The notes under the pieces: generated by a model
The model's input: only the letters and a program-made list of their open reading frames with translations
The model's database searches: none
What the model was told of the DNA's origin: nothing
Assembly: GCA_035650475.1 (NCBI GenBank)
Contig: DASRHP010000009.1
Coordinates: forward strand, 300,545 to 364,544
DNA length: 64,000 nt
Source of the DNA: Candidatus Binataceae bacterium
GTDB taxonomy: Bacteria; Desulfobacterota; Binatia; Binatales; Binataceae
Reading direction: 5' to 3'
Part shown: piece after piece, positions 34,321 through 51,996 of the stretch
Layout of the letters: every line of letters starts with the position of its first letter
How positions within the stretch are numbered: the stretch's first letter is position 1
Made by a program: the position numbers and the translations under genes

Positions 34321-34599
34321 GGCAGTGTCACCTTCCTCGCAGCCGTCGAGGTTTAGGCCGCGCGTGATGGGCAGGCGCCGTCCGCGGCGTATCCCGTGGC
34401 CGCCGCGGCGGAGTCCGCGATGAGCGATTTTCCGCTCCGATGGTCTTTCCAACAGGCGGGCAACTGTCAAGTGGCAGCGCGGGTTTTGCTTTTCGCGCCG
34501 CGCCCCCATCGGCTATCCTTGCGCCCGATGCGCACGCCAACGGGGACGACGCGGTGCGCGGCGGGGGAGGGCGCCGCAACACCCAAAATAACCAGAGGC

Positions 34600-35751
34600 A
34601 TGGGGCTCGCACGGTTGGGCGCATTCGGATTGATGAGCGCGCTGGCCGTTGCGCTCGTGCTTGACGGATGCACGCGCAGGGGCGCCCCGCCGTTGACCGA
34701 GGCCAATCCGCCGGTCGGCTACGTTTATGTGACCAACAATGGTGACGGGACGATTTCCGCGTTCAGCCGGATGGCCGACGGCGGTCTTATTTTTCAGCGC
34801 CTGACCAAGGCCGGCGCGGTTGACGGCCCGACCGGGGTCGCGATTCATCCGTCCAACCGCTACCTGTACGTCGCCAACGAGGGCAACAACCGCGTCTACC
34901 AGTTCCGTATTCGCCGCCGCAATGGCGCCCTGATGCCGATCGAAGGCGGTTCGGTGGCAACCGGGCCTGCCAGCCGCCCGCAGCACATCGCGATTGTTCC
35001 CGACGGCCGGTTCGCCTACGTCACCAACGCAGGCCCGGGCAAGGGCGGCGCCGGCTCGATTTCGGCCTTCACGATCGACGCTTCCACCGGCGCGCTCGGT
35101 TTGCTGCAGACCTTCCGCGACAGCGGGCTCAAGCAACCCTTCGGGATCGTGGCCGCGCCGGGCGGCAGGTTCGTCTACGTCTCCGACCGCGGCGCCGGCG
35201 CGATACTCAGCCTGGCGGTCCAGTCGGACGGCACGCTGAAACTGCAGGCGAACGTGCCGAGCCTTGGAACCAAGGCGGGTGAACCCCAGATGATCGCAGG
35301 CGACAACGCGGGATTCGTCTATGCGGTTGACGGCCACGACGGGGTGGTCGCGGTATTCAAGGCCGGCGCTGACGGCAAGCTGGAGTTCCAGAAGAGCTAC
35401 GCGGTCGGCGTCAGCACCGCCGAGCCGATGGCGATTACGCTTGCCGAAGCCGGCGGCCGCGAGTTCGCCTACACCGGCAACCGCTCGATCGACACGGTCT
35501 CCTACTTCATGATCCAGCACGGGGTGATGACGCTGGTGGGGCAGTCACCGACCGGACTGGGCGGCCCGAGCGGGATGGTGGTCGATCCCAGCGGGCGCTA
35601 TCTGTATGTGGTCAATCGCGACGCGGCCACCGTCGCGCAGTTCAATATCGTGCCGTCGCGCAACGGCGCGGCGATGCTAAACGCGACGATCTTCAGCGAG
35701 GATCCGGCCAACGAGTCGAGCCATCCGTTGTACATCGCAATGACCCACTGA
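34600..35751 (+). CDS. Beta-propeller lipoprotein, lactonase-like (copy 1)
   Basis: A 383-residue exported beta-propeller of the 6-phosphogluconolactonase/YVTN type. Start chosen at MGLARLGAFG because it begins a lipoprotein signal ending in LVLDGC; an upstream ATG at 34528 adds 24 residues before it. Blades are marked by repeated YVYVTNNGDGTISAF, YLYVANEGNNRVYQF, FAYVTNAG, FVYVSDRG, FVYAVDG, FAYTGNRSIDTVSYF and YLYVVNRDAATVAQF, seven in all, a complete propeller. It may bind protein or sugar on the periplasmic face. A homologue follows 73 bases later. Confidence 0.87.
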   Translation: MGLARLGAFGLMSALAVALVLDGCTRRGAPPLTEANPPVGYVYVTNNGDGTISAFSRMADGGLIFQRLTKAGAVDGPTGVAIHPSNRYLYVANEGNNRVYQFRIRRRNGALMPIEGGSVATGPASRPQHIAIVPDGRFAYVTNAGPGKGGAGSISAFTIDASTGALGLLQTFRDSGLKQPFGIVAAPGGRFVYVSDRGAGAILSLAVQSDGTLKLQANVPSLGTKAGEPQMIAGDNAGFVYAVDGHDGVVAVFKAGADGKLEFQKSYAVGVSTAEPMAITLAEAGGREFAYTGNRSIDTVSYFMIQHGVMTLVGQSPTGLGGPSGMVVDPSGRYLYVVNRDAATVAQFNIVPSRNGAAMLNATIFSEDPANESSHPLYIAMTH

Positions 35752-35824
35752 GACGGTCGGGTTCTCACAGCCGCAATCGCAAGTTCAGTAGCACGGCGGG
35801 CTCAGCTATCCTGTTCGAAGAACG

Positions 35825-37027
35825 ATGGCTTCGGCGGGCGGGAGAGGGCGGTCGCGTCTGCGCGCGACCGCAAGGCTCGCGGGGTGGGCGGCGGCCGCCG
35901 GATGGCTCGGCGCTCTCCTGCTGCTGGCCGCGGCCTCCTGCGGCAAGCGCGCCTTTCTGACCGGTTTCGAAGTGACCCCGACACCGACTGGCGGCCCCAC
36001 GCCGCAGCCCGGCGCGGGGCTGCTATTCGCGACCAATAACGCCGACGGAATGCTGAGCGAATTCAGCCGCGATACTGCCAGCGGAACGCTTACCCTGCTA
36101 GGCACCACTGCAGTAGGCGCGGCGGCCGGCCCCACCGGACTGGCGCTCACGCCGTCGAACGCCTTCCTGTACGTCGTCAACGCTGGCGATGCGCTGGTGC
36201 GGGAATTTGCCGTTAACCCTGGCAACGGCCTGCTCACCACGCTTGGCTCGGTCAGCGACGGCGCGGGCAGTGCGCCGCAGAACGTCGCAACCGATCCCTC
36301 CGGCAGCTTCTTGTACGTGACCAACTCCGGCGCGGGCGGCTCGATCTCCGAGTACAGGATTGCCGTCGGCGGCGCGCTGGTCGCCAACGGCAAACTGACC
36401 GGCATCGGACTGAGCGAGCCGATGGGAATTGCGGCGGCGCCCGGCGCCGGCGGGGCAGTCTATGTCGCGGATATTGGGGCGGGCGCGGTGATGTCGTTCC
36501 GTATCCAGCCGGGCGGTGCGCTTACGTTGGTGAGCAGCGTCCCCAGCCTGGGAACCGTCAAAGGGCAGCCGCGCGCAGTTGCGGTCGATCCCGGCGGCGG
36601 CTTCGTCTATGCCGCCGACGCCACCGGCGTGGTGTCGGTTTTCTCGGTCGGCGCCGGCAACTCGCTGGCCTTCGCGGCCAGCTATCCGACTTCGTCGTTC
36701 AGCAATCAGCCGTTCGCTCTCGCGCTGGCGGACAGCTTCGCCGGGCTCTTTCTCTACACCAGCAACCAGATCATTGATACGGTCTCGGATTTCGTCGTGA
36801 CGACGGGGGTGCTGTCGCTGCAGACGTCGGTGAGCGGGCTCAACACCCCGGCGGGGATCGCGGCGAGTCCCGACGGCAACTTCGTTTACGTCGCGAACAA
36901 GGGAACCGGGCAGATAGTCGGTTACTCGATCGGCGCGGGCGGTGCGCCCACTTCGATCGGCGCGTTTGCGACCGAAAACCCGGCCAACCCTGCAAGCGAG
37001 CCGCTATTCGTTGCGATTACGCGCTGA
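35825..37027 (+). CDS. Beta-propeller lipoprotein, lactonase-like (copy 2)
   Basis: A 400-residue paralogue of the previous protein. The signal peptide ends LLLAAASC, a good lipobox. A Thr/Pro/Gly linker (TPTPTGGPTPQPG) leads to seven blades: LLFATNNADGMLSEF, FLYVVNAGDALVREF, FLYVTNSGAGGSISEY, AVYVADIGAGAVMSF, FVYAADATGVVSVF, FLYTSNQIIDTVSDF and FVYVANKGTGQIVGY. The last residues ENPANPASEPLFVAITR parallel the ENDs of copy 1 (EDPANESSHPLYIAMTH), which proves common ancestry. Both are probably anchored in a membrane and face the periplasm; the ligand is unknown. Confidence 0.87.
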   Translation: MASAGGRGRSRLRATARLAGWAAAAGWLGALLLLAAASCGKRAFLTGFEVTPTPTGGPTPQPGAGLLFATNNADGMLSEFSRDTASGTLTLLGTTAVGAAAGPTGLALTPSNAFLYVVNAGDALVREFAVNPGNGLLTTLGSVSDGAGSAPQNVATDPSGSFLYVTNSGAGGSISEYRIAVGGALVANGKLTGIGLSEPMGIAAAPGAGGAVYVADIGAGAVMSFRIQPGGALTLVSSVPSLGTVKGQPRAVAVDPGGGFVYAADATGVVSVFSVGAGNSLAFAASYPTSSFSNQPFALALADSFAGLFLYTSNQIIDTVSDFVVTTGVLSLQTSVSGLNTPAGIAASPDGNFVYVANKGTGQIVGYSIGAGGAPTSIGAFATENPANPASEPLFVAITR

Positions 37028-37063: not shown

Positions 37064-38200
37064 TCAGGCCTGTGTTGCCGCAGCTGTCTTGGCCAGAGGC
37101 GCCTTGTGGCGCACATGGACCAGGAGTTCGCGCAGCTTGGCCGGATTGACCGGCTTTTTGAAGAGCGCGCCTTCCAGCCCGCGCATCCGGCTGCGCTTTA
37201 TGATGTGGTCGCGGTCGTAATAGTAGGCGGTCATCAGGATCACCGGCAGCTCCGGCATCTCTTCCTTGACCCGCATGTAGAACTCGTAGCCGTCCATCTC
37301 CGGCATCACGACGTCGGAGATCACCGCATCCACGCGCACGTTGCGCAGGATGCCGAGCGCGGCGCTCGGGCGGGTCGCCGTGTGAACCAGGCAGCGCTCG
37401 GCGCGCAGGACGTCGGCGAGCGAGCTCACCACCGAGAGATCGTCGTCGAGCACCAGCACCGACATCCCGGCCAGCGGCCAGTCGCATCCGTTGGCGGTCT
37501 TGGCGACCGCGGCGCCTGCGTTGCCGTTTTCCTCGGGCTCGTTGCGCGGGGCGAGGTCGGCCATCTTCTTGCCCGCCAGGTAGTCGCGGGTTTCGTACAC
37601 ACCCTTGCGCGCCATTTCGTCCAGCCGGCGCACGATGCCCTGGACGCGGCGCAGTCCGGAGCGGATGGAGTCGAGCCGTTCGTGCTCAACCACCAGCTCT
37701 GCGTCGGTCAGGTGCGATTCGACGCATCGCGCCAGCAGTTCCAGGTTGTTGGTGATCGATTCGAGCGGGTTGTTGATCTCGTGGGCGAGGCTGACCGCGA
37801 TCTCGCCTGCTGTCGCGAGCTGCTCGCGCTGGCGCATCAGGCGGATATCGCGGGCGAAGCCGATCGAGCCGGTCTCGGCCCCGCTCTGGTCGTAGATAAT
37901 GGAACCCGAGATGGCGACCGGGATGAGGTCGCCGTCTTTGCTGCGCAGCACGGTTTCGAAGCTCGAGATGCGGCCGGCATCGCGCGACTCGCGCATCGCC
38001 TTCATCACCCGGCGCGCCTCGTCGAGAGAGAGGTAGATTGCGGTGACCTTCTGGCCGACGATTTCGGCCGACGAGTAGCGCAGGCTTTTGCGCGCGCCGT
38101 CGTTGTAGAAGACGATGGTGCCGTCGCGGTCAACCGCGATGATGATGTCGGGCGAGCTTTCAACCAGGCGCTGAAGATAGCTTTGGTCGAGTGATAACAT
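37064..38200 (-). CDS. PAS-HisKA-receiver protein lacking a kinase ATPase domain
   Basis: A 378-residue cytoplasmic signalling protein. Residues 8-120 form a PAS domain (SSPDIIIAVDRDGTIVFYN, VAISGSIIYDQSGAE). Residues 125-200 are a HisKA dimerisation helix pair with the H box SLAHEINNPLESI (His140). A 40-residue linker replaces the HATPase_c domain that should follow: there is no N, G1 or G2 box. Residues 245-370 are a complete receiver with Asp252/Asp253, phospho-acceptor Asp296 in VISDVVMP, Thr324 and Lys349. It may be phosphorylated in trans and relay phosphate between His140 and Asp296. No frameshift is evident, because the linker is in frame and compositionally normal. Confidence 0.88.
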   Translation of the reverse strand: MLSLDQSYLQRLVESSPDIIIAVDRDGTIVFYNDGARKSLRYSSAEIVGQKVTAIYLSLDEARRVMKAMRESRDAGRISSFETVLRSKDGDLIPVAISGSIIYDQSGAETGSIGFARDIRLMRQREQLATAGEIAVSLAHEINNPLESITNNLELLARCVESHLTDAELVVEHERLDSIRSGLRRVQGIVRRLDEMARKGVYETRDYLAGKKMADLAPRNEPEENGNAGAAVAKTANGCDWPLAGMSVLVLDDDLSVVSSLADVLRAERCLVHTATRPSAALGILRNVRVDAVISDVVMPEMDGYEFYMRVKEEMPELPVILMTAYYYDRDHIIKRSRMRGLEGALFKKPVNPAKLRELLVHVRHKAPLAKTAAATQA

Positions 38201-38630
38201 GGCGGGTTGCCGCGGCTTAAAGCTGACCGTTCGCGGCGCGGCGCGCCAGGCGACGGGCTGATGATTTCATCGTGGATTTATGGGCAGTGATCCAGACGGC
38301 GGCGCACCAGCGCGGTCGAGCCCTCGCCTGCCGTCTCCACCACCGCGTCGTGCTCGTCCAGCGCCTCCGGCCCCCTGAGTATGGGCTGCGCCCCGGCCGG
38401 AACCGGATTTAAGTCCTTATCCATCCCCGCTCTCGCATAGTCTATCGCGCGCCGCAGTGCAATGCATCAAGGGGGCGGGAATCGACAGCCACCGGCCGGC
38501 TGAGCGCCCGGCCCGCCTTCTGTCCAGCCCGCCGATGACCGCCGGGCACGGGTTTCGTTGCCTGGCCGCCCCGCTCGGTTGCCATACCATTAGGCTTACA
38601 CCTACAATTTGTGGCGCGGAGTACCTACAG
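38201..38630. other. Divergent intergenic region holding one small candidate ORF
   Basis: About 430 bases between the PAS/receiver gene (minus) and the VWA gene (plus). The only coding candidate is the 48-residue minus-strand ORF at 38278-38424, given separately. The stretch 38570-38620 before the VWA gene contains TTAGGCTTACACCTACAATTTG and is the most promoter-like part. The plus-strand frame can be read back to 38457, but with no start signals there. No repeat or RNA was recognised. Confidence 0.4.
38278..38424 (-). CDS. Candidate small protein (48 residues)
   Basis: An ORF starting MDKDLNPVPAGAQPILRGPE and ending in RRRLDHCP, upstream of and on the same strand as the PAS/receiver gene (77 bases between). 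Its first half is acidic/proline-rich and its second basic. Start preceded by GAGCGGGG directly against the ATG, which is not an ideal ribosome site. Composition and stop-free length in GC-rich DNA could be chance. No homologue is known to me. Confidence 0.28.
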   Translation of the reverse strand: MDKDLNPVPAGAQPILRGPEALDEHDAVVETAGEGSTALVRRRLDHCP

Positions 38631-39941
38631 ATGGCAGAACCCCTGAGCTTCGAGGCGCTGGCGAGCCGCGAGTACGTCCTTTCGAGCGCGGAAAACTTCG
38701 TCCTCTACGTCTTGCTGGAGGCAGTCGCGCGCGGCGGCGCCGGCGCCGCCGGCGGTTCGCGCCTGCCGCTCAACCTGGGTGTGGTGATCGATCGCTCGGG
38801 CTCGATGTACGACGAGCGGCGGCTGGAATTCGTCGTCGAAGCGGTCAAGTTCCTCGCCGACAACGTCGCCCCGGAGGACAAGGTCGCGATCGTCGCCTTT
38901 GCCGATCGGGCCAAGGTGATCATCGCGCCCGACGAGATCCATGACAAGGGCGCCGTGCGCCGCGCGATCGATGACATCGACCTGCTCGAGATCGGCGGTG
39001 GCACGCAGATGGCGCTTGGGATGCGGGCGGCGATCGACGAGGTCAAGAAGAATCTCTCCACCGACCGTCTCAACCGCGTGCTGGTGCTGACCGACGGCCA
39101 GACCTATGAAGAGACCGCCTGTATCGACCTCGCCAACCAGAACCGCGATCAGATGTCGTTCTCGGCGATGGGCGTCGGTGTCGAGTTCAACGAGAAACTG
39201 CTGATGCGGATCGCGCAGGATTCGCACGGCAAATACCATTTCATCGGCGATCCCGCCGAGATTCCCGCCATCTTCGAAGACGAACTCCAGGGCCTGCGCG
39301 CGGTGACCGTGCGCAACGGTCGGATCGACATCACGCTCGCCCAAGGCGTGCAGGTGCGCGAGGCGTTTCGCGCCAGCCCCGAGATCTACGCCCTGGGTGC
39401 GCCGCTGGTCGGCGACGACCGCCGGGTCAGCTACGAGATCGGCGACCTCGAGGCCAACGTTCCCGGCTCGGTGCTGATGACGCTGGTGCTGCCGCCGCGC
39501 AAGCCCGGCACCGTGCGCATCCTGCAATCGACGCTGCGCTACGAGGTTCCTGGCGTCGGCGAGCAGAGCCTCGAACGCGACCTCACCGTGGAGTACACGC
39601 TCGACCGCACGCTCAGCGGCAAGGTCAACGCGCGGGTGATGAACCTGGTGGACCAGGTTTCGATCGCCAAGATGCAGGCGCGCGCCGAGGAAGAACTCAA
39701 GGCGGGCAACGTCGATCGCGCGACGCGGCTGCTGGGCAACGCCATCCAAGGCACTCAGCGGCTGGGCAACGTCAAGGCGACGCAGGCGCTGATGGGCCTG
39801 ATGGACCAGGTCAAAAAGACCCAGACTTTGCAGACCAAGGCGGCCAAGACCACGCTGTTGCAGGCGCAAGCGGTGGTGCGCAAGACGCAGATGCTCGATC
39901 CGGAGGCGCTTAAAGATCTTTCCAAGTCCGACGGAGGGTGA
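38631..39941 (+). CDS. VWA-domain protein of a phosphothreonine signalling cluster
   Basis: A 436-residue cytoplasmic VWA protein. The start is the ATG of MAEPLSFEALASREYVLSS with GGAG nine bases upstream. The VWA domain (about 45-225) carries an intact metal-ion site: DRSGSM, TQMALGM for the threonine, and LTDGQT. A beta-rich region follows to about 345, then helices. The C-terminal 45 residues hold two similar motifs, KKTQTL (Thr397) and RKTQML (Thr419), each with Leu at +3 from Thr. VWA proteins of this sort act as scaffolds, with the neighbouring FHA, kinase and phosphatase genes as likely partners, comparable to TerY in tellurite-linked triads. Expected to be the first gene of the operon. 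Confidence 0.9.
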   Translation: MAEPLSFEALASREYVLSSAENFVLYVLLEAVARGGAGAAGGSRLPLNLGVVIDRSGSMYDERRLEFVVEAVKFLADNVAPEDKVAIVAFADRAKVIIAPDEIHDKGAVRRAIDDIDLLEIGGGTQMALGMRAAIDEVKKNLSTDRLNRVLVLTDGQTYEETACIDLANQNRDQMSFSAMGVGVEFNEKLLMRIAQDSHGKYHFIGDPAEIPAIFEDELQGLRAVTVRNGRIDITLAQGVQVREAFRASPEIYALGAPLVGDDRRVSYEIGDLEANVPGSVLMTLVLPPRKPGTVRILQSTLRYEVPGVGEQSLERDLTVEYTLDRTLSGKVNARVMNLVDQVSIAKMQARAEEELKAGNVDRATRLLGNAIQGTQRLGNVKATQALMGLMDQVKKTQTLQTKAAKTTLLQAQAVVRKTQMLDPEALKDLSKSDGG

Positions 39942-40036
39942 TTTAACCGCCCTAAGTGTCGGCCCAGAACCAGTCAGCCTAAGATGGCAATTCCAGACGG
40001 CGGTGCGGTGATGCCGGCCAGCGAGGTGCTTTGACG

Positions 40037-40651
40037 ATGATCAAGTGCAGCGAATGCGGCTACGAAAATATTGACGGTCTCGATTACTGCGACGGATGTG
40101 GGGCCAAGCTCGAAGCGGCCGCCGCCGGCGCCGCGCCGGCCGGCAACAGTGGCGGGGCCGCCGCCGCTCCGCAGGAAGCTCCTGCGCCGCCTGCGAGCGC
40201 GGAGGCCGCCGCGCCGGCCCCAGGCGCGCCCGAGCCCACCGCGCCGCCACCCTCCGAGGCGCCCACCGGCGAGATTAAGCCGCAGCCCGAGACGGCGCCC
40301 GCGCCCGCCGCCTTTCGCGCCAAGCTGCAAATTATCCGCGGCGGACGCAAGGGACACGAGTTTCCGCTGGAGGACGGCAATAACCTGGTCGGGCGATGGG
40401 ATCCCGAGACCGGCGCGTTTCCCGAGGTCGACCTCGACCAGGACGACCCCGAGGCCAAGATTTCGCGCAAGCATGCGCTTATTCGGATCGAAGGCGGTAA
40501 GATCACCATCGAGGACATCGGCAGTCTCAACGGCACCTACGTCAACCGCCAGCCGCGCCTGATGCCCGGCAATCCGGTGGAGATCAAAGCCGGCGACGAA
40601 ATCATCATCGGCAAGACCTTCCTCAAGCTCATCGTCGAGCCGGTTTCCTAG
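40037..40651 (+). CDS. Zinc-ribbon/FHA-domain protein
   Basis: A 204-residue protein with an N-terminal zinc ribbon (C4-x2-C7 and C18-x2-C21, IKCSECGYENIDGLDYCDGC), a 60-residue Ala/Pro linker, and a C-terminal FHA domain from about residue 94. The FHA core has all phosphothreonine-binding landmarks: NLVGRWD (Arg), ISRKHALIR (Ser and His) and SLNGTYVN (Asn, Gly). It should read phosphothreonine on a partner such as the VWA protein or the kinases. ATG 40037 follows GAGGTG at eight bases; a TTG six bases earlier is less likely. Confidence 0.9.
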   Translation: MIKCSECGYENIDGLDYCDGCGAKLEAAAAGAAPAGNSGGAAAAPQEAPAPPASAEAAAPAPGAPEPTAPPPSEAPTGEIKPQPETAPAPAAFRAKLQIIRGGRKGHEFPLEDGNNLVGRWDPETGAFPEVDLDQDDPEAKISRKHALIRIEGGKITIEDIGSLNGTYVNRQPRLMPGNPVEIKAGDEIIIGKTFLKLIVEPVS

Positions 40652-40735
40652 GCGCGGGCGTGGCGGACGGCGCTGGGCGGCCGGATCGGTTGCCGCGCCT
40701 TCGGTGTCTCGGCGCCCGCCAGAATTGGTAGTGAA

Positions 40736-42583
40736 ATGAAAGCGGGTGAGCAGCTTCCCGCAGGCCGGATGCTCGACGGTCGCTACCGCGTGCACAAGGT
40801 GCTCGGCCAGGGTGGGATGGGACGGGTCTATCTCGCCAACGACACCCGGCTCTCCAGTCGCCCGGTCGCCGTCAAGGAGATGATCATCGGCGACGGGATT
40901 GCCGAGAAGAAGGCGATCGAGGACTTCGCGCGCGAGGCGCGCGTACTCGCCGTGCTTTCCCATCCGGGCATCCCCAACGTCATCGACTACTTCGCCGAGA
41001 ATAATCGCCACTACCTGGTGATGGAGTTCGTTGCTGGCGGCGATTTGCAGGGGATGCTCGACAAGCTCGGCCCCGGCGGCCGGCTGCCCGAGCCCAAGGT
41101 GCTGCGCTGGGCGCGCCAGATTCTCGATGTGCTCAGCTTCCTGCACGCGCAGGCGCCGCCGATCATCTACCGCGACCTCAAGCCCGGCAACATTATGATC
41201 GACAAGGACGGCCGCGCGATGCTCATCGACTTCGGCATCGCGCGCTTCCTGCCGCCGGGTGGCCGCGGGACTCAGATAGGCTCGGTCGGCTACGCCCCGC
41301 CTGAGCAGTACATGGGCAAGGTCGAGCCGCGCTCGGATCTCTACTCGCTTGCCGCCACGATGCATCATCTGCTCACCGGGCGCGACCCGCAGCTCGAGCC
41401 GCCGTTCAGCTTCCCGCCGCTGCGCGACCTCAACCCGGCCGTCTCGCTGAAGACGGCCGAGGTCGTAATGCGCGCGCTCGACAAGGACATCGAGAAGCGC
41501 CCGCGCTCGGCGCGCGACATGATGCATGAGCTGCCGGATCCGGGACAGGAGCCGAAGACCGCAGCTTCAAGCGGCATCGGCGCGGGTGCCGGTGCTAGCG
41601 CGGCAGCGCCGATCGCCTCAATGCCGACGGTCGTACTCGATCGCCCGCGACCGCCCGCGGCGGCTACGCCTCCCTCAACAGGCTCCGCGCCGGTGGTGCT
41701 GCCGGCCGCCACGCCCTCCGGAATGCGAGCGACACCGGCGTCCGGCGACAGAACCGATGCTGCGGCGCCGTCGTTAATAACGTCGATGCCGACGGTAGTG
41801 CTTAACCGGCCGGGGTCACCGCCCGCGCTTCCGCCGAGTCACGCGCCCGCGCGGATGCCGACGGTTGTGCCCGGGTCACCGCCCCCGATGCCCGCGGAGC
41901 AGGCGACGCCAGCGGCTTCCGCACCGTTGATGCCCGCGGCGGCCAAGGCGGCTAAGGTGCTCGCCCGCTCGGCCCGGGCGGTCGCCAAACGCGCGGCGTC
42001 TCGTCTCCAGGCGCAGCAGTCGTTATTCGCAAACAAGCCCGTCGCCACGCCCTCTTCGACCGCCAGGACGCAGGACTTGAGCCGCACGGGCCCGCCGCCC
42101 GCGTCGCGCTCGTCCTCTTCGTCCGCGCCACCGCCGACTCCGCGCTCTGCCTCCGGCGTGCCGGGCGTCTTTGCGCAAAAGGCCGACGTCGCACCGGCGC
42201 ACCGCAACGGCGTCGCCGCCATCAACGTCAATCATGGAGCGGGCGTGGATGCGACTGTGGGCGCGGGCGCATGGCTGATCGCCAGTGGCAACTCGCCCCG
42301 TTTCGGCGTGGTCGGCAGCCGGACGGTGATCGGACGCGCGACGGCGGGACGGGAAGCGCCGGACATCGATTTGGGCATCCTCAAGAGCGGCGGCGATCGC
42401 GTCTCTTATCGCCACGCCGAGATAATCAAGCACGGTGCGGACTATTACATCCGCGATCTTGGCAGCCTCAATGGCACTTACATCACCGGCCGCGGCCGGC
42501 TTGGGCGCGACCAGCTTTACAAGCTCAAGGACCGTGACCAAATCGTGTGCGGAAGCGCTAAACTGGAGTTCAGGAAGAGCTAG
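40736..42583 (+). CDS. Ser/Thr protein kinase with C-terminal FHA domain
   Basis: A 615-residue soluble Hanks-type kinase. Kinase domain 15-265: glycine loop GQGGMG (24-29), ATP lysine Lys47 (VAVKEM), catalytic YRDLKPGN (Asp147, Tyr instead of His in HRD), DFG 165-167, APPE 187-190. Residues 270-510 are a disordered Ala/Pro-rich stretch with three near-identical MPTVV elements (Thr298, Thr353, Thr376), the first two followed by Leu at +3, and TQDL at Thr445. The C-terminal FHA domain (about 515-612) has RTVIGRA, VSYRHAEI and SLNGTYI, so it is predicted active. The kinase could mark its own linker and bind other copies or be bound by the FHA proteins. It precedes the pseudokinase-phosphatase gene by 24 bases. 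Confidence 0.93.
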   Translation: MKAGEQLPAGRMLDGRYRVHKVLGQGGMGRVYLANDTRLSSRPVAVKEMIIGDGIAEKKAIEDFAREARVLAVLSHPGIPNVIDYFAENNRHYLVMEFVAGGDLQGMLDKLGPGGRLPEPKVLRWARQILDVLSFLHAQAPPIIYRDLKPGNIMIDKDGRAMLIDFGIARFLPPGGRGTQIGSVGYAPPEQYMGKVEPRSDLYSLAATMHHLLTGRDPQLEPPFSFPPLRDLNPAVSLKTAEVVMRALDKDIEKRPRSARDMMHELPDPGQEPKTAASSGIGAGAGASAAAPIASMPTVVLDRPRPPAAATPPSTGSAPVVLPAATPSGMRATPASGDRTDAAAPSLITSMPTVVLNRPGSPPALPPSHAPARMPTVVPGSPPPMPAEQATPAASAPLMPAAAKAAKVLARSARAVAKRAASRLQAQQSLFANKPVATPSSTARTQDLSRTGPPPASRSSSSSAPPPTPRSASGVPGVFAQKADVAPAHRNGVAAINVNHGAGVDATVGAGAWLIASGNSPRFGVVGSRTVIGRATAGREAPDIDLGILKSGGDRVSYRHAEIIKHGADYYIRDLGSLNGTYITGRGRLGRDQLYKLKDRDQIVCGSAKLEFRKS

Positions 42584-42607
42584 GGCTGGCGGAAGGATCC
42601 AAGCGCA

Positions 42608-44761
42608 ATGATCACGTGCCCGGAGTGCGGCCAGGCCGCGGCCGACGACGCCCGCTTCTGCGACCGTTGCGGCCAGGGATTAACCAAGTCCGCCGCTCCG
42701 AGGGCTGATTATGCGCTGTCCGCGCTTAATCCTGGCGCCGTGCTGCGCGCTGGCGAATTCCGCATCGTCGAGCTTATCGGCCGCACCGCGCTCGAAAACC
42801 GCTACCGCGCGGAGCGCCTGCGTGACGGCGCCGTAATCGGGCGCGTGCAACTGCGCGAGCGCTCCGGCCCCGCAGCGGCGGTCGAGGGGGCTGTCCCGTC
42901 CGCGCCGAGTCCCGGGGCCAACGGCAAGTCCGCCGACGAAGACCCCAGCGGACCGCGCGCCAAGACGGCGGAACTCAAGCGTCCGCCGCAGCCGGCCGGC
43001 GCGCCAGCGCCGTCGGCGCAACCGCAGCAAGGCGCGCCAACGGCTTCGGCGTGCGAGGAGAGCGGAGCGGGAGCGAGCGTCGGTGATCGCAACGGCTCCA
43101 GCGACGCTGTCGGCACGCTCCCGACGCCGGCGGGAGTCGCAGATGCCATCGAGGGCGGCGGCAACGAGATGGCACAGGCGCCGCTTGCCGCTCGCGGCTC
43201 GGCCGCGACCGAACCCCTTACGCTTAGCGAGGCGATGGCGGAGGTTGGCCAGGTACAGGTCGAGGCCGAAGCCACCGCGCCGCCGGCTGCCGTTTCAGAG
43301 AGAACGGAAGCGACGGTTTCCCCCGAGCCGCCAGAGGCGGCAGCGAGCGCAGCGCAAGCCGGCGCCGATCTGGGAGATCTGTTCGGGCGCGTGCTCGCAC
43401 TTTCGCTCACCGTCAACCATCCAGCCTTCCAGCGCGCAAGCGAGGGCTTCGCGCAGAACGGCCGGGTTTATCTGGTCTGCCCGGACGAAGAATACACCGT
43501 GCTGGCGCATCGGCGCGGCGGTCTCAGAATGACCGAAAGCGAGGCGTTGAACGTCGCCATCCAGGTCTGCCAGGCGGTTTCCTTCCTCAATCGCCGCGCT
43601 CTGCGTCTCAACGATATCTGCCCGCAGTCGGTGGCTTGCGCGCCCGACGGACGGGTGAAGCTTTTAGGCCTCGATTACGTCAGCAACGATACCGAGCTCC
43701 AGGCCGAGCCGATCCTCAACGACGGCTACACGGCGCCGGAGATTTATCGCGGCAAGCGGGTGGACAAACGGGCGGACGTCTTTTCGATCGGAGCGTTGCT
43801 CTACAGCTGCCTGACCGGCGAACGCCTGGAGTCCGAGAGCTGGCGCGAAGAAGGGGGATTGATCCGCTTCTATCCGCCGCACGTGGTTTCGCCCGCGCTC
43901 GAACAGGCAGTGCGGCGCGCCCTGGCGTTCGACCCTGCGGGGCGCTGGCCGACCGTGGACGCGCTGAAGGCCGAGCTGGTCAGGCTTGGCGGGATACTGT
44001 CGATTCGTGCCGCAGCGTTGACCGACGTCGGGATGGTGCGCGAGCACAATGAAGATTCGGTGATGGCGGTCGAGTACGTGCGCCAGAGCCTGGTCGAGCC
44101 GGCCGAGCGCTACCTTTACGTGGTTGCCGACGGGATGGGCGGTGCGGAGGCGGGGGAAATTGCCAGCGCAATTGCCGTTGCGACAGTTCGGAATTATGTT
44201 GAGGACAGGATTTCAGGCGCGGAAGTCCACAATCCGGGGCAATTGGTGAGCGCGGCGCTCGAGGAGGCTAACCGCAAGATCATCGAGTACCAGGCCGCGC
44301 ATCCCGAGTCCCGCGGCATGGGCTCGACCGCAGTGAGCGCGCTTATCGTGCCGCCCGAGGCGGCGGTGGCATGGGTGGGCGACAGCAGGGCTTACCTGTG
44401 GAACCTCTCCGGCTTGCGTCAGTTGACCCGCGACCATTCCCTGGTCCAGCGGCTAATCGAGATCGGACAGATCACACCCGAAGAGGCGCGCCATCACGAG
44501 CACAAGAACGTGATCACGCGCTCGCTGGGCGCCCGCCAAAGCGGGGCCGCGGGCGCCGAGGCGGTGGCGCTCAGGCTCAAGCGCGGCGACCGCCTGTTGC
44601 TGTGCAGCGACGGGCTGACGACGCACGTCGAGGACAAAGCGATAGCCGAGGTGATGCGCCGCCACGACGATCCGTACACGGCGGCGCGCGAGCTGGTGGT
44701 GGCGGCCAATGCGGGAGGTGGAACGGACAACGTCTCAGTTATCGTTGTGTTTGCTGACTGA
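42608..44761 (+). CDS. Zinc-ribbon/pseudokinase/PP2C phosphatase fusion
   Basis: A 717-residue three-part protein. Residues 1-25 are a zinc ribbon (C4/C7, C18/C21). A kinase-like lobe starts at 48 (FRIVELIGRTALENRYRAER) but the ATP lysine is missing (IGRVQLRE), and a 175-residue Ala/Pro-rich insert separates it from the rest. The C-lobe (255-460) is recognisable by its helices, but HRDLKPxN is RLNDICPQSV and DFG is GLD, so it cannot catalyse: a pseudokinase. Residues 465-717 are a complete PP2C with DGMGG (Asp508), GDSRAY (Asp592), SDGLT (Asp668) and GGTDNVS (Asp707). The phosphatase should reverse the neighbouring kinases' marks. Its stop overlaps the next kinase start by one base. Confidence 0.9.
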   Translation: MITCPECGQAAADDARFCDRCGQGLTKSAAPRADYALSALNPGAVLRAGEFRIVELIGRTALENRYRAERLRDGAVIGRVQLRERSGPAAAVEGAVPSAPSPGANGKSADEDPSGPRAKTAELKRPPQPAGAPAPSAQPQQGAPTASACEESGAGASVGDRNGSSDAVGTLPTPAGVADAIEGGGNEMAQAPLAARGSAATEPLTLSEAMAEVGQVQVEAEATAPPAAVSERTEATVSPEPPEAAASAAQAGADLGDLFGRVLALSLTVNHPAFQRASEGFAQNGRVYLVCPDEEYTVLAHRRGGLRMTESEALNVAIQVCQAVSFLNRRALRLNDICPQSVACAPDGRVKLLGLDYVSNDTELQAEPILNDGYTAPEIYRGKRVDKRADVFSIGALLYSCLTGERLESESWREEGGLIRFYPPHVVSPALEQAVRRALAFDPAGRWPTVDALKAELVRLGGILSIRAAALTDVGMVREHNEDSVMAVEYVRQSLVEPAERYLYVVADGMGGAEAGEIASAIAVATVRNYVEDRISGAEVHNPGQLVSAALEEANRKIIEYQAAHPESRGMGSTAVSALIVPPEAAVAWVGDSRAYLWNLSGLRQLTRDHSLVQRLIEIGQITPEEARHHEHKNVITRSLGARQSGAAGAEAVALRLKRGDRLLLCSDGLTTHVEDKAIAEVMRRHDDPYTAARELVVAANAGGGTDNVSVIVVFAD

Positions 44762-47124
44762 TGGCGAATTCCTCCACAACCGGCAACCTGCCAACCGAGG
44801 CACTTTCGCCCGGCACCGTTCTGCAAAACCGCTACGCGGTCGAGCGCCTGCTCGGCGGCGGCGGGATGGGGATGGTCTACCTGGCCCACGACCAGCGCCT
44901 GGCCAACCGGCCGTGCGCGGTCAAGGAGATGGTCGATCACTTCATCGACCCTCAGCAGCGCATCGAGGCCAACGAGTACTTCGCCCGCGAGGCCGACACG
45001 CTCGCCCAGCTCAAACACTCCGCGATCCCGGCGATTACCGACCGCTTCGACGACCATAACCGGCACTACCTGGTGATGGAGTACGTCGAGGGCCGCAACC
45101 TCGAAGAGGAACTGGCGGCCCGCGGCGGTCCGCTGCCCGAAGGGCTGGTGATCGATATCGCGCGCCAGCTGTGCGACGTGCTTGCCTATCTGCACGGATG
45201 CGTGCCGCCCATCGTGTACCGCGACATGAAGCCCTCCAACGTGATGCTGACGCCGAAGGGCAGGGTGGTGCTCATCGACTTCGGCATCGCACGCCTGTTC
45301 AAGACCGCGCGCAAGGGCACGATGATCGGCACGCTCGGCTTCGCGCCGCCCGAGCAGTATCAGGGCGCGGTCGACCCGCGCAGCGATATCTACTCGCTGG
45401 GCGCAACCCTGCATTACGTCCTCACCGCGCGCGACCCCGAGAAGTTCCCGCCTTTCAGTTTCCCTCCGGTGCGCGACCTGCGCCCGGAAACCTCAACCAA
45501 CCTCGCCGCCGCCATCGACGCCGCGCTCGCCTACCAGGTCGAAGCGCGGCCGCAGACGATCCAGGACTTCCGCGACATGCTGCTGTACGGGCGCGGGATC
45601 GGTGCCGCGGCGGGCGCCGGAGCGCCCGCGGTCAGCGCGCGCGGCGGGACGGCAGACCTCTCGTTGCCGATGCCGGAGCCGGCGGAGACCCACGTCGCCC
45701 CGCACCATCGCCGTCGCCGCCGCAAGCATCGGCTGATCGCATTGGCCGCGTTTTCGGCGGTGATGGCAGGCGCGGCGTTCGGCGCGACCTACGTCTACAA
45801 TAACCCCCAGCTTCAGGAGCGGCTCGGCGTAAAATCCTTCATCGACAGCCTGCCCTGGAAGATGCAGGAGCGTCTCGCCCGCGCCGAGCAGCATCCGCTC
45901 GACTTTCATCGCCTCACCCTTCAGCTCTCCACTCGTTCAGGGACTCCGCTAAGCGCGCCGCGGGCGAGCTTCACCAACGTCGAACTGTCGAACAACCGCT
46001 ATCTGCAATGGGATGCTGCGTTCGCCAATCGCCTGGCCGGGCTCAAGGGCCGGAACGAAAAGGTCGAGGCGCGCTTCTACAGCCCCTCAGGGCTGCAAAT
46101 CGCCTCCAGCAGCACCAGCCGTTTCGTCGGGCCGGGCGAGCAGAGCGCCGAGTTCAGCGGCGTGGCGCTGATGCCCGACCTGAGCGCGCTGTCGCCCGGC
46201 AATTACAAGGTCGGGCTGTATGTCAACGATCAGTTGGCGGCTGAGCAGGCGTTTACCGTCAACCGCGACGAGGCCGCGGTGGCCGCGGCCGCCGCCGCCG
46301 TGGAGGCTGAGAGAGCGCGCGAAGAGGCTGAGCAGCGCAGACAGCGCGAAGCGGCCCAGCGGCTGGCGATGCTCGATGAGCGCAAGCGTAAGCCGCTGCA
46401 ATTGCTCAACATCGAGTTTCTCAACACCACCAAGTCGGGCACTCCGCTGAGCGGCCCCAGCGGGTCGTTCCCCGCCTCCAAGCTGCTCTTCGTCGATTGG
46501 CGGGTGACCTTCGAAAACCGCCTGTTCAACCTCGACACCGGGCAGTACCGGGTGGACGCCGCCTACATCGCGCCCGACGGACGCACGCTGGGCAGCGTGG
46601 ACGATATCCGGATTGTCCCGCCGAGCGCGAAGACCGCGACGTTCAGCGGCCGGGTCGGCAATTCCGCCGGCGGCGCGTTTTTGCCCGGGCAATACACGGT
46701 CAACTTTTATCTCAACGGCCAGTACGTCGCGCAGAAAAAGTTCCGCGTGCTGGCCGATGCTCCGCGGTCTTACTCTCCCGTGCTCGGCACCGCGCCGCCC
46801 GCGCCCGGCGGTTCGATCGACGTGCCCACGCTAACCACCGGACGCATCGATGGGCTGGGCGGCGCGAGCAGCGTCCCGATGGAGTTGCGCTTGCGCCCGC
46901 AGCCCAACGGTTTCCTGCACGGCGAGTTGGTGATCCATCAGGCCGGCTACGGCGCTACGCCAATCCAGGGCTTCATCCGCGGCGACCATGTCGAGTTCCA
47001 GGTCCCATACGGGACCAAGACCTTGTACTTCGATGGGCGGCGCAGCGCCGACCAGCTCAGCGGCACCTTCTCCGCGATCCCGAGCGGCGAGCGCGGGACC
47101 TGGACCACAACCATGACCAACTGA
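44761..47124 (+). CDS. Transmembrane Ser/Thr protein kinase with duplicated extracytoplasmic domains
   Basis: A 787-residue membrane kinase. Cytoplasmic kinase domain 25-275: GGGGMG loop, Lys55 (CAVKEM), YRDMKPSN (Asp155), DFG 173-175, APPEQY. After a positively charged RRRRRKHR segment comes one helix (about 324-346). The outside part has two related beta-rich repeats: residues about 380-505 (LTLQLSTRSGTPLSAP, LQWDAAFANRLAG) and about 560-680 (IEFLNTTKSGTPLSGP, FVDWRVTFENRLFN), joined by an alanine/glutamate helix, then a final domain to 787. The repeats should sense or bind something in the periplasm. It is fused in expression to the PP2C gene by a one-base overlap. Confidence 0.93.
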   Translation: MANSSTTGNLPTEALSPGTVLQNRYAVERLLGGGGMGMVYLAHDQRLANRPCAVKEMVDHFIDPQQRIEANEYFAREADTLAQLKHSAIPAITDRFDDHNRHYLVMEYVEGRNLEEELAARGGPLPEGLVIDIARQLCDVLAYLHGCVPPIVYRDMKPSNVMLTPKGRVVLIDFGIARLFKTARKGTMIGTLGFAPPEQYQGAVDPRSDIYSLGATLHYVLTARDPEKFPPFSFPPVRDLRPETSTNLAAAIDAALAYQVEARPQTIQDFRDMLLYGRGIGAAAGAGAPAVSARGGTADLSLPMPEPAETHVAPHHRRRRRKHRLIALAAFSAVMAGAAFGATYVYNNPQLQERLGVKSFIDSLPWKMQERLARAEQHPLDFHRLTLQLSTRSGTPLSAPRASFTNVELSNNRYLQWDAAFANRLAGLKGRNEKVEARFYSPSGLQIASSSTSRFVGPGEQSAEFSGVALMPDLSALSPGNYKVGLYVNDQLAAEQAFTVNRDEAAVAAAAAAVEAERAREEAEQRRQREAAQRLAMLDERKRKPLQLLNIEFLNTTKSGTPLSGPSGSFPASKLLFVDWRVTFENRLFNLDTGQYRVDAAYIAPDGRTLGSVDDIRIVPPSAKTATFSGRVGNSAGGAFLPGQYTVNFYLNGQYVAQKKFRVLADAPRSYSPVLGTAPPAPGGSIDVPTLTTGRIDGLGGASSVPMELRLRPQPNGFLHGELVIHQAGYGATPIQGFIRGDHVEFQVPYGTKTLYFDGRRSADQLSGTFSAIPSGERGTWTTTMTN

Positions 47125-47245
47125 GCGGCGCCGACTGTGCTGTACGGCAGCCGGCGGTACGATTTCACGCTCGGCGGCGGACAGGATGGCATCGTGCGCT
47201 TGAACCGCCGCGGCCGGCGCGCAATGCTCTAGACAGGCAGGCGGT

Positions 47246-48115
47246 ATGGCCGTCAACGTTTCGCGCGAAAAGCTTCTGTTCTATGCGGCGGCGGGGGGCT
47301 TGGGCGGCTTTGCCGCCTGGGGAGTGCAGGAGTCATTCGCCGGCATCCGCTACTACTTCCTGCGCGACGCGGTCCAGGGCGTAATCATCGGGCTCTTCAT
47401 CGCCGCCTTTCTCGCCTCGATCGAGGCGCTCAGCGTCAGCCAGTGGCGCCAGGTGCTGCGCGGCGCGAAGAGCGGCGCGATCTTCGGCGCGCTCGGCGGC
47501 GCCGCCGGCCTGGTCGGCGGCGAAATACTTTTCGACATTCTCCACGGACTGGTCGGGCGCGTCGTCGGATGGGCGCTGCTCGGCGTGGTCGTGGGACTGG
47601 GTGTCGGGTGGGCCTCCGGATCGGCGGCGCGCAAGCGCAACGGCGCGCTCGGCGGGCTCATCGGCGGCGCGCTCGGCGGGCTGTTCTACCAGACGCTCAC
47701 CGCGAGCTTCCCGCAGGCGCTCGGACGCGCGATCGCGATAATCGTGCTCGGCGCGCTCATCGGCTTCTTCATCGGCCTGGTCGGCGAACTGCTCAAGCGC
47801 GGATGGCTGATGGTGGTCCGCAGCCAGAGCCGCAACGCGCGCGAGGGGCGCGAGTATCCGCTGACCAAGCCGGTCACGATCATCGGCCGCGCCGAGGAGA
47901 GCGATATCGGATTGTTCGGCGACCAGAGCGTGCTGGCGCATCATGCGATCATCCGCCGCGAAGGACGCAACTTCGTCGTGGCGCCTGCGGGCGGCGGCCA
48001 GGTGATGGTCAACCGCCGGCCGGTGGCCGGGCGTCAGGCCCTGCGCAGCGGCGACAGGCTCGAAGTCGGGGGAACGCTCTTCATCTTTCGCGAACGCGCG
48101 CAGGCGCAAGGCTGA
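47246..48115 (+). CDS. Membrane protein with C-terminal FHA domain
   Basis: A 289-residue protein. The first 190 residues form several helices with glycine-zipper patterns (GGLGGFAAWG, GGAAGLVGGEI, GGLIGGALGGLFYQ), probably five to six membrane spans. The C-terminal FHA domain begins at about 205 (PLTKPVTIIGRAEESDIG) and has the GR of the binding site, but the usual S-R-x-H is SVLAHHAII and the N-G-T turn is GGQVMVNRR. Phosphate contacts are therefore partly lost. It sits 121 bases behind the transmembrane kinase and 9 bases before a lipoprotein gene, so it is probably the membrane-anchored FHA reader of the cluster. Confidence 0.87.
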   Translation: MAVNVSREKLLFYAAAGGLGGFAAWGVQESFAGIRYYFLRDAVQGVIIGLFIAAFLASIEALSVSQWRQVLRGAKSGAIFGALGGAAGLVGGEILFDILHGLVGRVVGWALLGVVVGLGVGWASGSAARKRNGALGGLIGGALGGLFYQTLTASFPQALGRAIAIIVLGALIGFFIGLVGELLKRGWLMVVRSQSRNAREGREYPLTKPVTIIGRAEESDIGLFGDQSVLAHHAIIRREGRNFVVAPAGGGQVMVNRRPVAGRQALRSGDRLEVGGTLFIFRERAQAQG

Positions 48116-48124
48116 GGCCATTCG

Positions 48125-48907
48125 GTGCAACCACGCGCCCTTCCCGCACGACTGCTCGCGGCTGCGCTCGCGGCCGCGGCGGCGGCGCTGACCGCGTGCG
48201 CGACGCGGGCGGTCCAGCAGGAAATCGCCAATACGCCTCCGACCTCGATCGAAACGCTTTCCTACTTTCCGTTTCTGGTGAAAGGCTATCAGAACAGCTA
48301 CCCGCGCAAGCGGATTCTGGTGCTGATGCCGGTCGAGGCGCGTGATTTCAAAGACGCCGCCGGCCAGAGCCACGACCCGCAGGACGGCAATCCGGCGACC
48401 GGCATCGTACTTGGGCCCTCAGGGGAGGTCGTCCAGCGCATCTACAGCTCGCCGCTGGCCGCAATGGTGCAGCAGGCGATCGTGCAGTCGGCCGACGAGG
48501 CCGGGATGGTCGCGACGGCGTCCAGCGCGACACTGGAGGCCGCCCTCGAGCAGACGGGTGAGGACTACGTGCTCGCCAGCAAAATCACCCGATGCTGGGT
48601 GAACAAGCACGTAAGCACGAGCTCCGCCGCTCAGAGCTGGCTTACCACCGCCGACGCTGCGCTCGACGTCACCATCTACAAGCCGCCGTTCAACGTGCCG
48701 TTCTGGCAGGGCGTCAGCAGCGCGACCTACAGCGATCCCCCGGCAGACAACGGGTCCGGCACGGGCGATCAGGTGCCGATTTACGAACACCCCGGCGAGG
48801 TGCTCTCGGTTGCGATGACCCGTGCGGTGGCCGGGATTTTCAAGCGCGAGGCGCTCCACGCGCTGGTGCTTCAGGATACGATACGACCGCCTGCGGCGGC
48901 GAATTGA
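48125..48907 (+). CDS. Lipoprotein of unknown function, last gene of signalling cluster
   Basis: A 260-residue protein with GTG start nine bases after the membrane FHA gene. A signal sequence ends in LTAC, an acceptable lipobox. The mature part reads ILVLMPVEARDF, a central region with an Ala-rich helix (SPLAAMVQQAIVQSADEAG), and YVLASKITRCWVNKH followed by WLTTADAALDVTIY. This gross pattern (a strand with basic ends, then VxGxIxxCWVxx) resembles YajG-type lipoproteins and outer-membrane assembly accessory lipoproteins. I cannot name it. Its coupling to the kinase-phosphatase cluster suggests an envelope role for that pathway. Confidence 0.75.
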   Translation: MQPRALPARLLAAALAAAAAALTACATRAVQQEIANTPPTSIETLSYFPFLVKGYQNSYPRKRILVLMPVEARDFKDAAGQSHDPQDGNPATGIVLGPSGEVVQRIYSSPLAAMVQQAIVQSADEAGMVATASSATLEAALEQTGEDYVLASKITRCWVNKHVSTSSAAQSWLTTADAALDVTIYKPPFNVPFWQGVSSATYSDPPADNGSGTGDQVPIYEHPGEVLSVAMTRAVAGIFKREALHALVLQDTIRPPAAAN

Positions 48908-50931: not shown

Positions 50932-51846
50932 CTACTTCTTGCCGCCCGCGCGCCGGCGCTCGCCCCGCGCGCGCGTAGCGCGCGCGGACGGCTTGCGCGC
51001 GCCGGCCTCGGTCGACGCGGCCGCTTCGATGGGCGCGCCGACCTGGGCGCCGTGCTCCTGCTCCACCCCCGCGCGCTTGGCCAGTGACGCCTTCAGCGCC
51101 GCCATCAGATCGATGACCTGGGCGCGGCGCGGTGTCTCGGGCGCCTCGGTCACCTGCTGGCCGGCGATCTTCTGCTGCGCCGCCTCCATCACGCGCTCAC
51201 GGAAGGTGTCATGGTACTTCGTGAGATCGAGCTTCTTCGCTGTGAGCTCGTCGATCAGACGCTGCGCCAGCCGGAGCTCGCTTTCCTTGACCACCTCCTG
51301 GGTGCCGCGATCGATCTCTTCGACCGGCCGCACTTCGTCGGCGTAATAGACGGTGTGCATCATCAGACCTTTCTCGTACGGGCGAATCAGTACGAGGTGC
51401 TCCTTGCCGCGCATCGTGAAACGCCCCAGCGCGACGCGCCCGCTTGCTTCCATCGCCTCGGTCAGCAGACGGTAGGCCTTTGCCGAGCCCGGCTCGCATC
51501 CGAGATAGTAGGCGCTCTCGAAGTAGACCGGGTCGATTTGCGCGAGCGGCACGAATTCGGTGATCTCGATCACATGGTTGCTGCCGCGCGCTTCGAGATT
51601 CTTCAGCTCCTCGTCGGTGAAGGTCACGTAGCGGTCCTTGGCGACCTCGTAGCCGCGCACCAGTTCGCTGCGCTCGATTATCGCGCCCTCGACCGGACAG
51701 AAGATCTTCTGCTGGATCCGGCTCAGGTCCTTGGCGTGAAGCAGGTTGAAGCTCACCGACTTCGAGCGCGTCGCGGGGAACAGGCGCACCGGAATCGAAA
51801 CCAGGCCGAACGAGATGTTGCCGTTGCCGACCGGACGTGCTGCCAT
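50932..51846 (-). CDS. ku: Ku, non-homologous end-joining DNA-end binding protein
   Basis: A 304-residue bacterial Ku, which forms a homodimeric ring on DNA ends and recruits LigD. Start at MAARPVGNGNISFGLVSIPV with GGGAGG eight bases upstream; the frame extends 279 bases further without a credible start. Conserved stretches: NISFGLVSIPVRLFPAT, CPVEGAIIERSELVRGYEV, EFVPLAQIDPVYFESAYYLG, MRGKEHLVLIRPY and LDLTKYHDTFRERV. The C-terminus past residue 265 is an Ala/Lys/Arg-rich tail ending RGERRRAGGKK, longer and more basic than the minimal Ku, as in species where the tail tunes DNA binding. Divergent from ligD. Confidence 0.95.
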   Translation of the reverse strand: MAARPVGNGNISFGLVSIPVRLFPATRSKSVSFNLLHAKDLSRIQQKIFCPVEGAIIERSELVRGYEVAKDRYVTFTDEELKNLEARGSNHVIEITEFVPLAQIDPVYFESAYYLGCEPGSAKAYRLLTEAMEASGRVALGRFTMRGKEHLVLIRPYEKGLMMHTVYYADEVRPVEEIDRGTQEVVKESELRLAQRLIDELTAKKLDLTKYHDTFRERVMEAAQQKIAGQQVTEAPETPRRAQVIDLMAALKASLAKRAGVEQEHGAQVGAPIEAAASTEAGARKPSARATRARGERRRAGGKK

Positions 51847-51996
51847 CTGCGCTACCTCCCTTGCGGGCCCACGGGCACAGCTTACCGGCCCGGCGACAGC
51901 GCAGGCCATACCGTGGGACGGCGAAAAGGCGAATTTATGAGATCCAGCAGCCGCGGCGGAAGCCGACGCTGACGGCGAAAGCGAAGCGAAATCAGC

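Follow-up and report, generated by a model that had tools for sequence, protein, structure and literature searches.

A seven-gene phosphothreonine signalling operon with a shared T-x-x-L motif in Candidatus Binataceae

What does a compact run of genes for threonine kinases, a phosphatase and phosphothreonine (pThr) readers do in an uncultured bacterium, and does it belong to a system already described? We addressed this question for seven same-strand genes, designated A to G, at positions 38631-48907 (+) of a 64,000-nucleotide stretch of Candidatus Binataceae DNA (assembly GCA_035650475.1, contig DASRHP010000009.1, positions 300,545 to 364,544), hereafter the window. We put at roughly one half the probability that they form an envelope module for phosphothreonine signalling, inherited vertically and working by the mechanism proposed below. 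The initial annotation had described a same-strand island with two Ser/Thr kinases, three FHA domains, a PP2C phosphatase, a VWA protein, two zinc ribbons, a membrane FHA protein and a lipoprotein. All seven open reading frames were confirmed, and each of these parts was recovered (bit scores from Pfam):

38631-39941, + strand: gene A, VWA protein of 436 amino acids (aa) with T-x-x-L repeats in its tail (VWA, 64.5 bits)
40037-40651, + strand: gene B, zinc ribbon and canonical FHA domain, 204 aa (FHA, 56.2 bits)
40736-42583, + strand: gene C, active-type Ser/Thr kinase, long linker and canonical FHA domain, 615 aa (Pkinase, 134.9 bits; FHA, 48.1 bits)
42608-44761, + strand: gene D, zinc ribbon, long linker, pseudokinase and active-type PP2C, 717 aa (PP2C, 57.6 bits; Pkinase, 43.4 bits)
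43367-43981, + strand: pseudokinase domain of D, residues 254-458 (HRD changed to LND, catalytic-loop Lys to C or P, DFG altered)
44761-47124, + strand: gene E, active-type kinase, linker, transmembrane (TM) helix (about 321-347) and ectodomain, 787 aa (Pkinase, 127.3 bits)
47246-48115, + strand: gene F, Gly-rich multi-TM protein with a C-terminal FHA domain, 289 aa (Yop-YscD_cpl, 43.8 bits; FHA, 34.5 bits)
48125-48907, + strand: gene G, predicted lipoprotein with the lipobox LTAC, 260 aa (AlphaFold mean pLDDT 82.5)

Pfam thus placed FHA domains in B, C and F and strong Pkinase domains in C and E. The zinc ribbons scored below or near the cut-off; their cysteines comprise four conserved positions in B within the source family, and those of D fall clearly into C-x2-C pairs. 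The junctions, most of which had been described as an overlap or small gaps, measured 95 bp (A-B), 84 bp (B-C), 24 bp (C-D), a 1 bp overlap (D-E), 121 bp (E-F) and 9 bp (F-G).

Judged by their residues, kinases C and E, the PP2C of D and the FHA domains of B and C are of the active or canonical type. The catalytic residues K47, R146, D147, K149, N152 and DFG of kinase C were kept in 27/27 sequences and those of kinase E in 31/31, while the FHA domain of B retained its GR, S, R, H, N and G positions in 38/38. The metal-ion-dependent adhesion site (MIDAS) of A (D54-S56-S58, T125, D155) was intact in 43/43. The PP2C metal-site residues of D were invariant, and the protein exceeded the NCBIfam cut-off for Stp1_PP2C (241.9 vs 230). 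The same protein carries a pseudokinase, overlooked initially, in which the catalytic Lys, HRD and DFG are all lost. DFG has become GLD in the source family and mostly Q-F-D in a second Binatia family, so the substitutions differ between families. Against a same-genus genome, dN/dS was 0.11 for the pseudokinase and 0.08-0.24 for all seven genes, indicating purifying selection.

Three parts are predicted to lie at the envelope. The ectodomain of E was modelled by AlphaFold as two Ig-like repeats followed by a C-terminal beta domain (mean pLDDT 78.6, pTM 0.39), and its sequence gave only a weak PkwA match against the PDB, with no stretch passing alone. The FHA domain of F keeps its phosphate-binding Arg, with R215 and H233 both present in 27/27. 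Gene G had no match in Pfam, NCBIfam or PADLOC; its predicted fold resembles DUF330/CsgG/LptE lipoproteins (best Foldseek match 2iqi, E 4.8e-7, TM-scores 0.39/0.56). The TM kinase, the membrane FHA protein and this lipoprotein, with its outer-membrane-lipoprotein-like predicted fold, all speak for the envelope link claimed in the initial annotation.

Gene order across genomes, suggested earlier as a check, proved to be conserved. We sampled 44 distinct loci, 34 of them from the source family (Candidatus Binataceae, phylum Binatota). Versions of the operon also occur in a second Binatia family (f5) and in a more distant family (f42). The order A-B-C-D-E-F-G was complete in 21/34 source-family loci, and all the rest but one were cut by contig ends or by the end of the compared stretch. 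Since this order is complete in 21 distinct loci while the flanks vary, the operon is more than a chance grouping. The f5 order is A-B-D-E-F, without C and G, and f42 has a reshuffled version with a VWA protein about 32% identical. Gene A was present in 37 Binataceae and 11 f5 genomes among 148 Binatia genomes, and at the same threshold in no other Binatia family among them. Two Binataceae genomes scored without A (G032 and G214) carry gene E. In G032 the contig begins inside B, so A was lost at the contig end; the same is likely for G214, and one further genome (G001) appears truly to lack the module. The base composition of the operon was like that of its flanks, with no difference found. 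The operon is near-universal within one family and apparently passed on vertically there. Named relatives of gene A came from Candidatus Binataceae or Binatia metagenome-assembled genomes (MAGs), or from MAGs labelled only Deltaproteobacteria or Proteobacteria, bar two weak VWA matches. From these relatives, the source family corresponds to the order Binatales, and f5, as we infer, probably matches the order Bin18 described by Murphy et al. (PMC8262859). In one single-contig genome (G086:C1; L134/L135), a rearrangement has separated the two halves of the operon's VWA gene by about 140 kb, to positions near 496 kb and 639 kb.

A short motif, T-x-x-L or a variant of it, recurs in A to E at the following positions:

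39819-39896, + strand: tail of A, motifs KTQTL (T397), KTTLL (T407) and KTQML (T419), candidate phospho-acceptor and FHA-ligand sites
40265-40276, + strand: linker of B, motif PTGE[IL] (T-x-x-[ILV] in 22/29 Binataceae sequences)
42068-42079, + strand: linker of C, motif T445-Q-D-L448 (invariant columns)
42965-42976, + strand: linker of D, motif T120-A-E-L123 (AKTAEL; invariant columns)
45649-45660, + strand: juxtamembrane linker of E, motif T297-A-D-L300 (T and L in 31/31, Binataceae and f5)

C, D and E each have a long, low-complexity linker with poor conservation (median column identity 0.35-0.5). Within them, the sole invariant positions are S440, T445 and L448 in C (231 columns, 27/27), A118, T120 and L123 in D (161 columns, 26/26), and T297 and L300 in E (39 columns, 24/24). 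In C and D the common form is A-K-T-[AQ]-[DE]-L; in E it is G-T-A-[DE]-L. In the tail of A, the Thr and the +3 Leu of all three copies were invariant in 43/43 sequences of both families, the third copy standing in the context R-K-T-Q-M-L-D-P. Compared with shuffled, unaligned linkers, T-x-x-L occurred 183 vs 40.7 times in A, 67 vs 16.9 in C, 37 vs 15.7 in D and 31 vs 10.8 in E, a two- to four-fold excess that is no strict probability because the sequences are related. The argument, drawn from comparison of sequences, is that conservation centres on the same Thr/Leu pair in each of four different proteins. The f42 homologues keep the motif as SKTVRL and FKTQML in D, EPKTKRL in the kinase, and GTKKL, GTRKL and LTQKL in the A tail. 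FHA domains bind pThr, and the residue at +3 often contributes (PMC5549992). We consider the T-x-x-L sites to be candidate kinase sites and FHA ligands, their phosphorylation being a prediction. The coding pattern for AKTA[DE]L occurs once in the whole genome, in gene D, leaving no other protein with this form as a candidate substrate.

An eighth component lies outside the operon. The source genome encodes a VWA-TM-FHA protein with a signal-like N-terminal helix at a separate locus (G000:C1:94677-96314; L151:6675-8315, - strand). In f5 the corresponding gene directly follows F (five loci, then three more), and in f42 a single 771-aa protein combines an F-like TM-FHA part, a VWA-TM-FHA part and a zinc ribbon. 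The orthologue likewise stands apart from the operon in the Binataceae genomes examined, where its neighbours are mostly acetolactate synthase and a CarboxypepD_reg-domain protein. It was found in 48/145 Binatia genomes, all Binataceae or f5 and nearly the same set as those with gene A. Adjacency, fusion and co-occurrence agree in linking this gene to the operon. The description of the pathway as stand-alone has to be corrected, given this dispersed gene and a satellite FHA/kinase pair on contig C12. The satellite pair (about 734.5-738 kb; L153:3548-7071) consists of an F-related Gly-rich TM-FHA-FHA protein and a kinase-zinc ribbon protein, whose kinase domain is 53% identical to that of C and whose linker contains T-V-V-L.

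We propose the following mechanism. An extracytoplasmic cue would act on the Ig-like ectodomain of the TM kinase E, the presumed sensor of the pathway both here and in the initial annotation, and E would phosphorylate itself and its partners; kinase C would amplify the signal. The main targets would be the linker copies of T-x-x-L in C, D and E, the tandem copies in the tail of A, and T-x-x-[IL] in B. The FHA domains of B and C would bind the resulting phosphothreonines with Leu at +3, through which the multivalent A tail may draw B, C and D together in a scaffold close to the membrane, anchored there by F and the dispersed VWA-TM-FHA protein. D would be the brake, recruited via its own motif, its PP2C stripping phosphates and its pseudokinase serving as a sensor or docking part. 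The output would be control of an envelope process via the VWA MIDAS sites and lipoprotein G; the putatively periplasmic VWA domain, the modelled ectodomain of E and the lipoprotein point to such a process. Gene content and order, the state of the catalytic, pseudo-catalytic and FHA residues, the invariance of the motif and the linkage of the eighth component are observed, and motif phosphorylation, FHA binding, assembly and output are steps that we infer. A more tentative reading, less likely than not, is that T-x-x-L, common to nearly all soluble parts and serving both as kinase target and as FHA ligand, makes the whole a self-assembling, phospho-switched membrane signalosome. The VWA tail would be its polymer handle, the FHA proteins its cross-linkers and the pseudokinase-phosphatase its brake, with the periplasmic VWA domain and the outer-membrane lipoprotein coupling it across the envelope.

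Several observations weigh against this interpretation. In one Binataceae locus (G011), the single real exception to the gene order, F and G are not beside E. In the FHA domain of F, the Ser (L, A, Q, N, M or R at that position) and the NGT Asn, which normally contact pThr, are gone, so that any pThr binding by this domain may differ from the canonical mode. The D protein of f5 lacks AKTAEL, and the B protein of f5 lacks the motif of B. Part of the A tail looks helical, so some T-x-x-L copies there may be structural. Invariance across related sequences is no independent evidence per genome, and whether the +3 rule holds for FHA domains in general is disputed (PMC4037201). The organisms are uncultured, and phosphorylation, binding and phenotype are all predictions from sequence.

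Upstream of gene A we noted two further features:

38579-38608, + strand: sigma-70-like promoter match, TTGCCA-18-TACAAT (10/12 in a consensus scan)
37064-38200, - strand: divergent PAS-HisKA-REC gene, a possible regulator (Pfam PAS, HisKA and Response_reg)

The promoter-like match lies 23 bp ahead of gene A; it is one of 2 matches in the region vs 0.9 expected, and is not evidence of function. The divergent gene, also overlooked initially, adjoins gene A in 28/34 Binataceae loci, and His140 and Asp296 of its product were invariant (28/28); Pfam found no HATPase_c ATPase domain in this protein. Its linker (residues about 211-217) contains K[KR]MADL, the frame of the motif with Met replacing Thr. 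Further upstream (window 34396-37027) lie two neighbouring lactonase-like beta-propeller proteins, relatives of which flank the operon in several related genomes. On the other side, Ku and a three-domain LigD are encoded in a head-to-head overlap adjoining the operon (window 50932-54672), a neighbour that, among the loci examined, is shared with the same-genus genome alone. Neither Ku/LigD nor the downstream DUF4382 gene was conserved across the family loci, and no downstream partner common to all Binataceae loci was found.

The best-surviving alternative, though a rather unlikely one, is that the T-x-x-L sites serve docking or targeting independently of phosphorylation, with the kinase C-lobe, the VWA MIDAS or the pseudokinase as possible partners. 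The operon would then be an ordinary kinase/phosphatase pathway, and its readers would have other, unlinked substrates. The Leu is very constant and basic residues lie alongside the motif, VWA MIDAS sites bind extended peptides (PMC7159879), and K-[KR]-M-A-D-L in the divergent PAS gene suggests a role for the frame even where the phospho-acceptor is missing. In A, C, D and E, however, the Thr never varies to Ser, Val or Met, which is what FHA ligands would predict; the same operon also encodes two canonical FHA domains.

Less probable still, and to our mind unlikely, is that the operon does housekeeping work, as an envelope or cell-division kinase system like the actinobacterial PknA/PknB-PstP-FHA network, with an incidental motif. 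The operon is near-universal in the family and under purifying selection, it has lipoprotein and TM parts, and PknB was the nearest fold in the PDB, in a search dominated by the kinase half. With the actinobacterial PknB/PstP/GarA networks it shares a PknB-like kinase fold, a PP2C and an FHA reader. Unlike them, it has a VWA scaffold and, in place of a PASTA sensor, the ectodomain of two Ig-like repeats and a beta domain: Pfam found no PASTA domains, and NF033483 matched the kinase part only, at 206.5 and 186.9 bits (cut-off 450). No division or peptidoglycan genes adjoin the operon, and it is absent from most other Binatia families.

An anti-phage or conflict defence system built on Ser/Thr kinases is very unlikely. 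PADLOC kinase models (PD-T4-6, MAD6, PglW) match the operon, but the matches fall largely on the generic kinase domain, and the NCBIfam models of MAD6 and PglW stay below cut-off. Our literature search for the same operon returned nothing closer than the actinobacterial GAP1-N2 GTPase systems of Kaur et al. 2020 (PMC7159879), conflict systems with a kinase-PP2C-vWA trio. As in that trio, the PP2C gene and a standalone vWA gene are close neighbours. In contrast, the seven genes and ten scanned neighbours include no GTPase, GAP1, FNIII, MoxR or effector gene, and the lineage is another; FHA readers, the pseudokinase-PP2C fusion, the membrane FHA protein and the lipoprotein belong to our operon only. 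Its near-universal, apparently vertical and not patchy distribution and its flank-like composition also argue against defence.

The TerY-P triad consists of a VWA protein, a kinase and a PP2C. That the operon is a divergent member of this triad or of the type VI secretion system (T6SS) threonine phosphorylation pathway can be dismissed almost outright: the VWA, kinase, PP2C and FHA building blocks are common to them, adjacent VWA, kinase and PP2C genes recalling TerY-P, but TerD (PF02342, with positive controls in B. subtilis and Deinobacterium matched) and the T6SS sheath protein VipB (PF05943) had no match in the whole genome, VI_FHA (TIGR03354) scored 37.0 and 23.4 bits vs 120.25, and none of the ten neighbours scanned is a Ter or T6SS gene. 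This bears out the earlier statement that such partners are missing; with the gene order conserved as well, neither outcome that the initial annotation named as refuting its reading was observed. The vWA-TerF-like model, which is not specific for TerY, scored 23.9 bits vs a cut-off of 29.4. In the T6SS pathway (PpkA, PppA, Fha1, TagF), pThr of a membrane protein recruits Fha (PMC3953482). There too a kinase, a PP2C and an FHA reader act on threonine, whereas the operon adds a VWA protein and a pseudokinase. Clusters of a CHASE2-kinase, PP2C and FHA protein in the same phylum (L127, L128) likewise have writer, eraser and reader adjoining, but with a CHASE2-like sensor (named by eye) and no VWA, pseudokinase fusion or membrane FHA protein. 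Two apparent fusion homologues (L038/L039, E about 1e-50) were rejected, as the match crosses a stop codon that divides a CHASE2-like kinase from an independent PP2C gene. By its gene content, the operon is a variant of bacterial phosphothreonine signalling that lacks the partner genes of TerY-P, T6SS and GAP1-N2 where these were sought.

Most bacterial phosphothreonine modules have been described apart from their substrates, whereas the operon described here appears to carry its own, tagged with one motif. Because these putative substrates lie in the operon and share that motif, writer, tag, reader and eraser would be testable with a handful of peptides. The conserved pseudokinase-PP2C fusion is an addition to the known repertoire. 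The main Binatota genome paper makes no mention of kinases, phosphatases or signalling (PMC8262859), and this uncultured phylum would thus gain a defined signalling system, one that suggests a previously undescribed, switchable envelope assembly in little-known soil bacteria.

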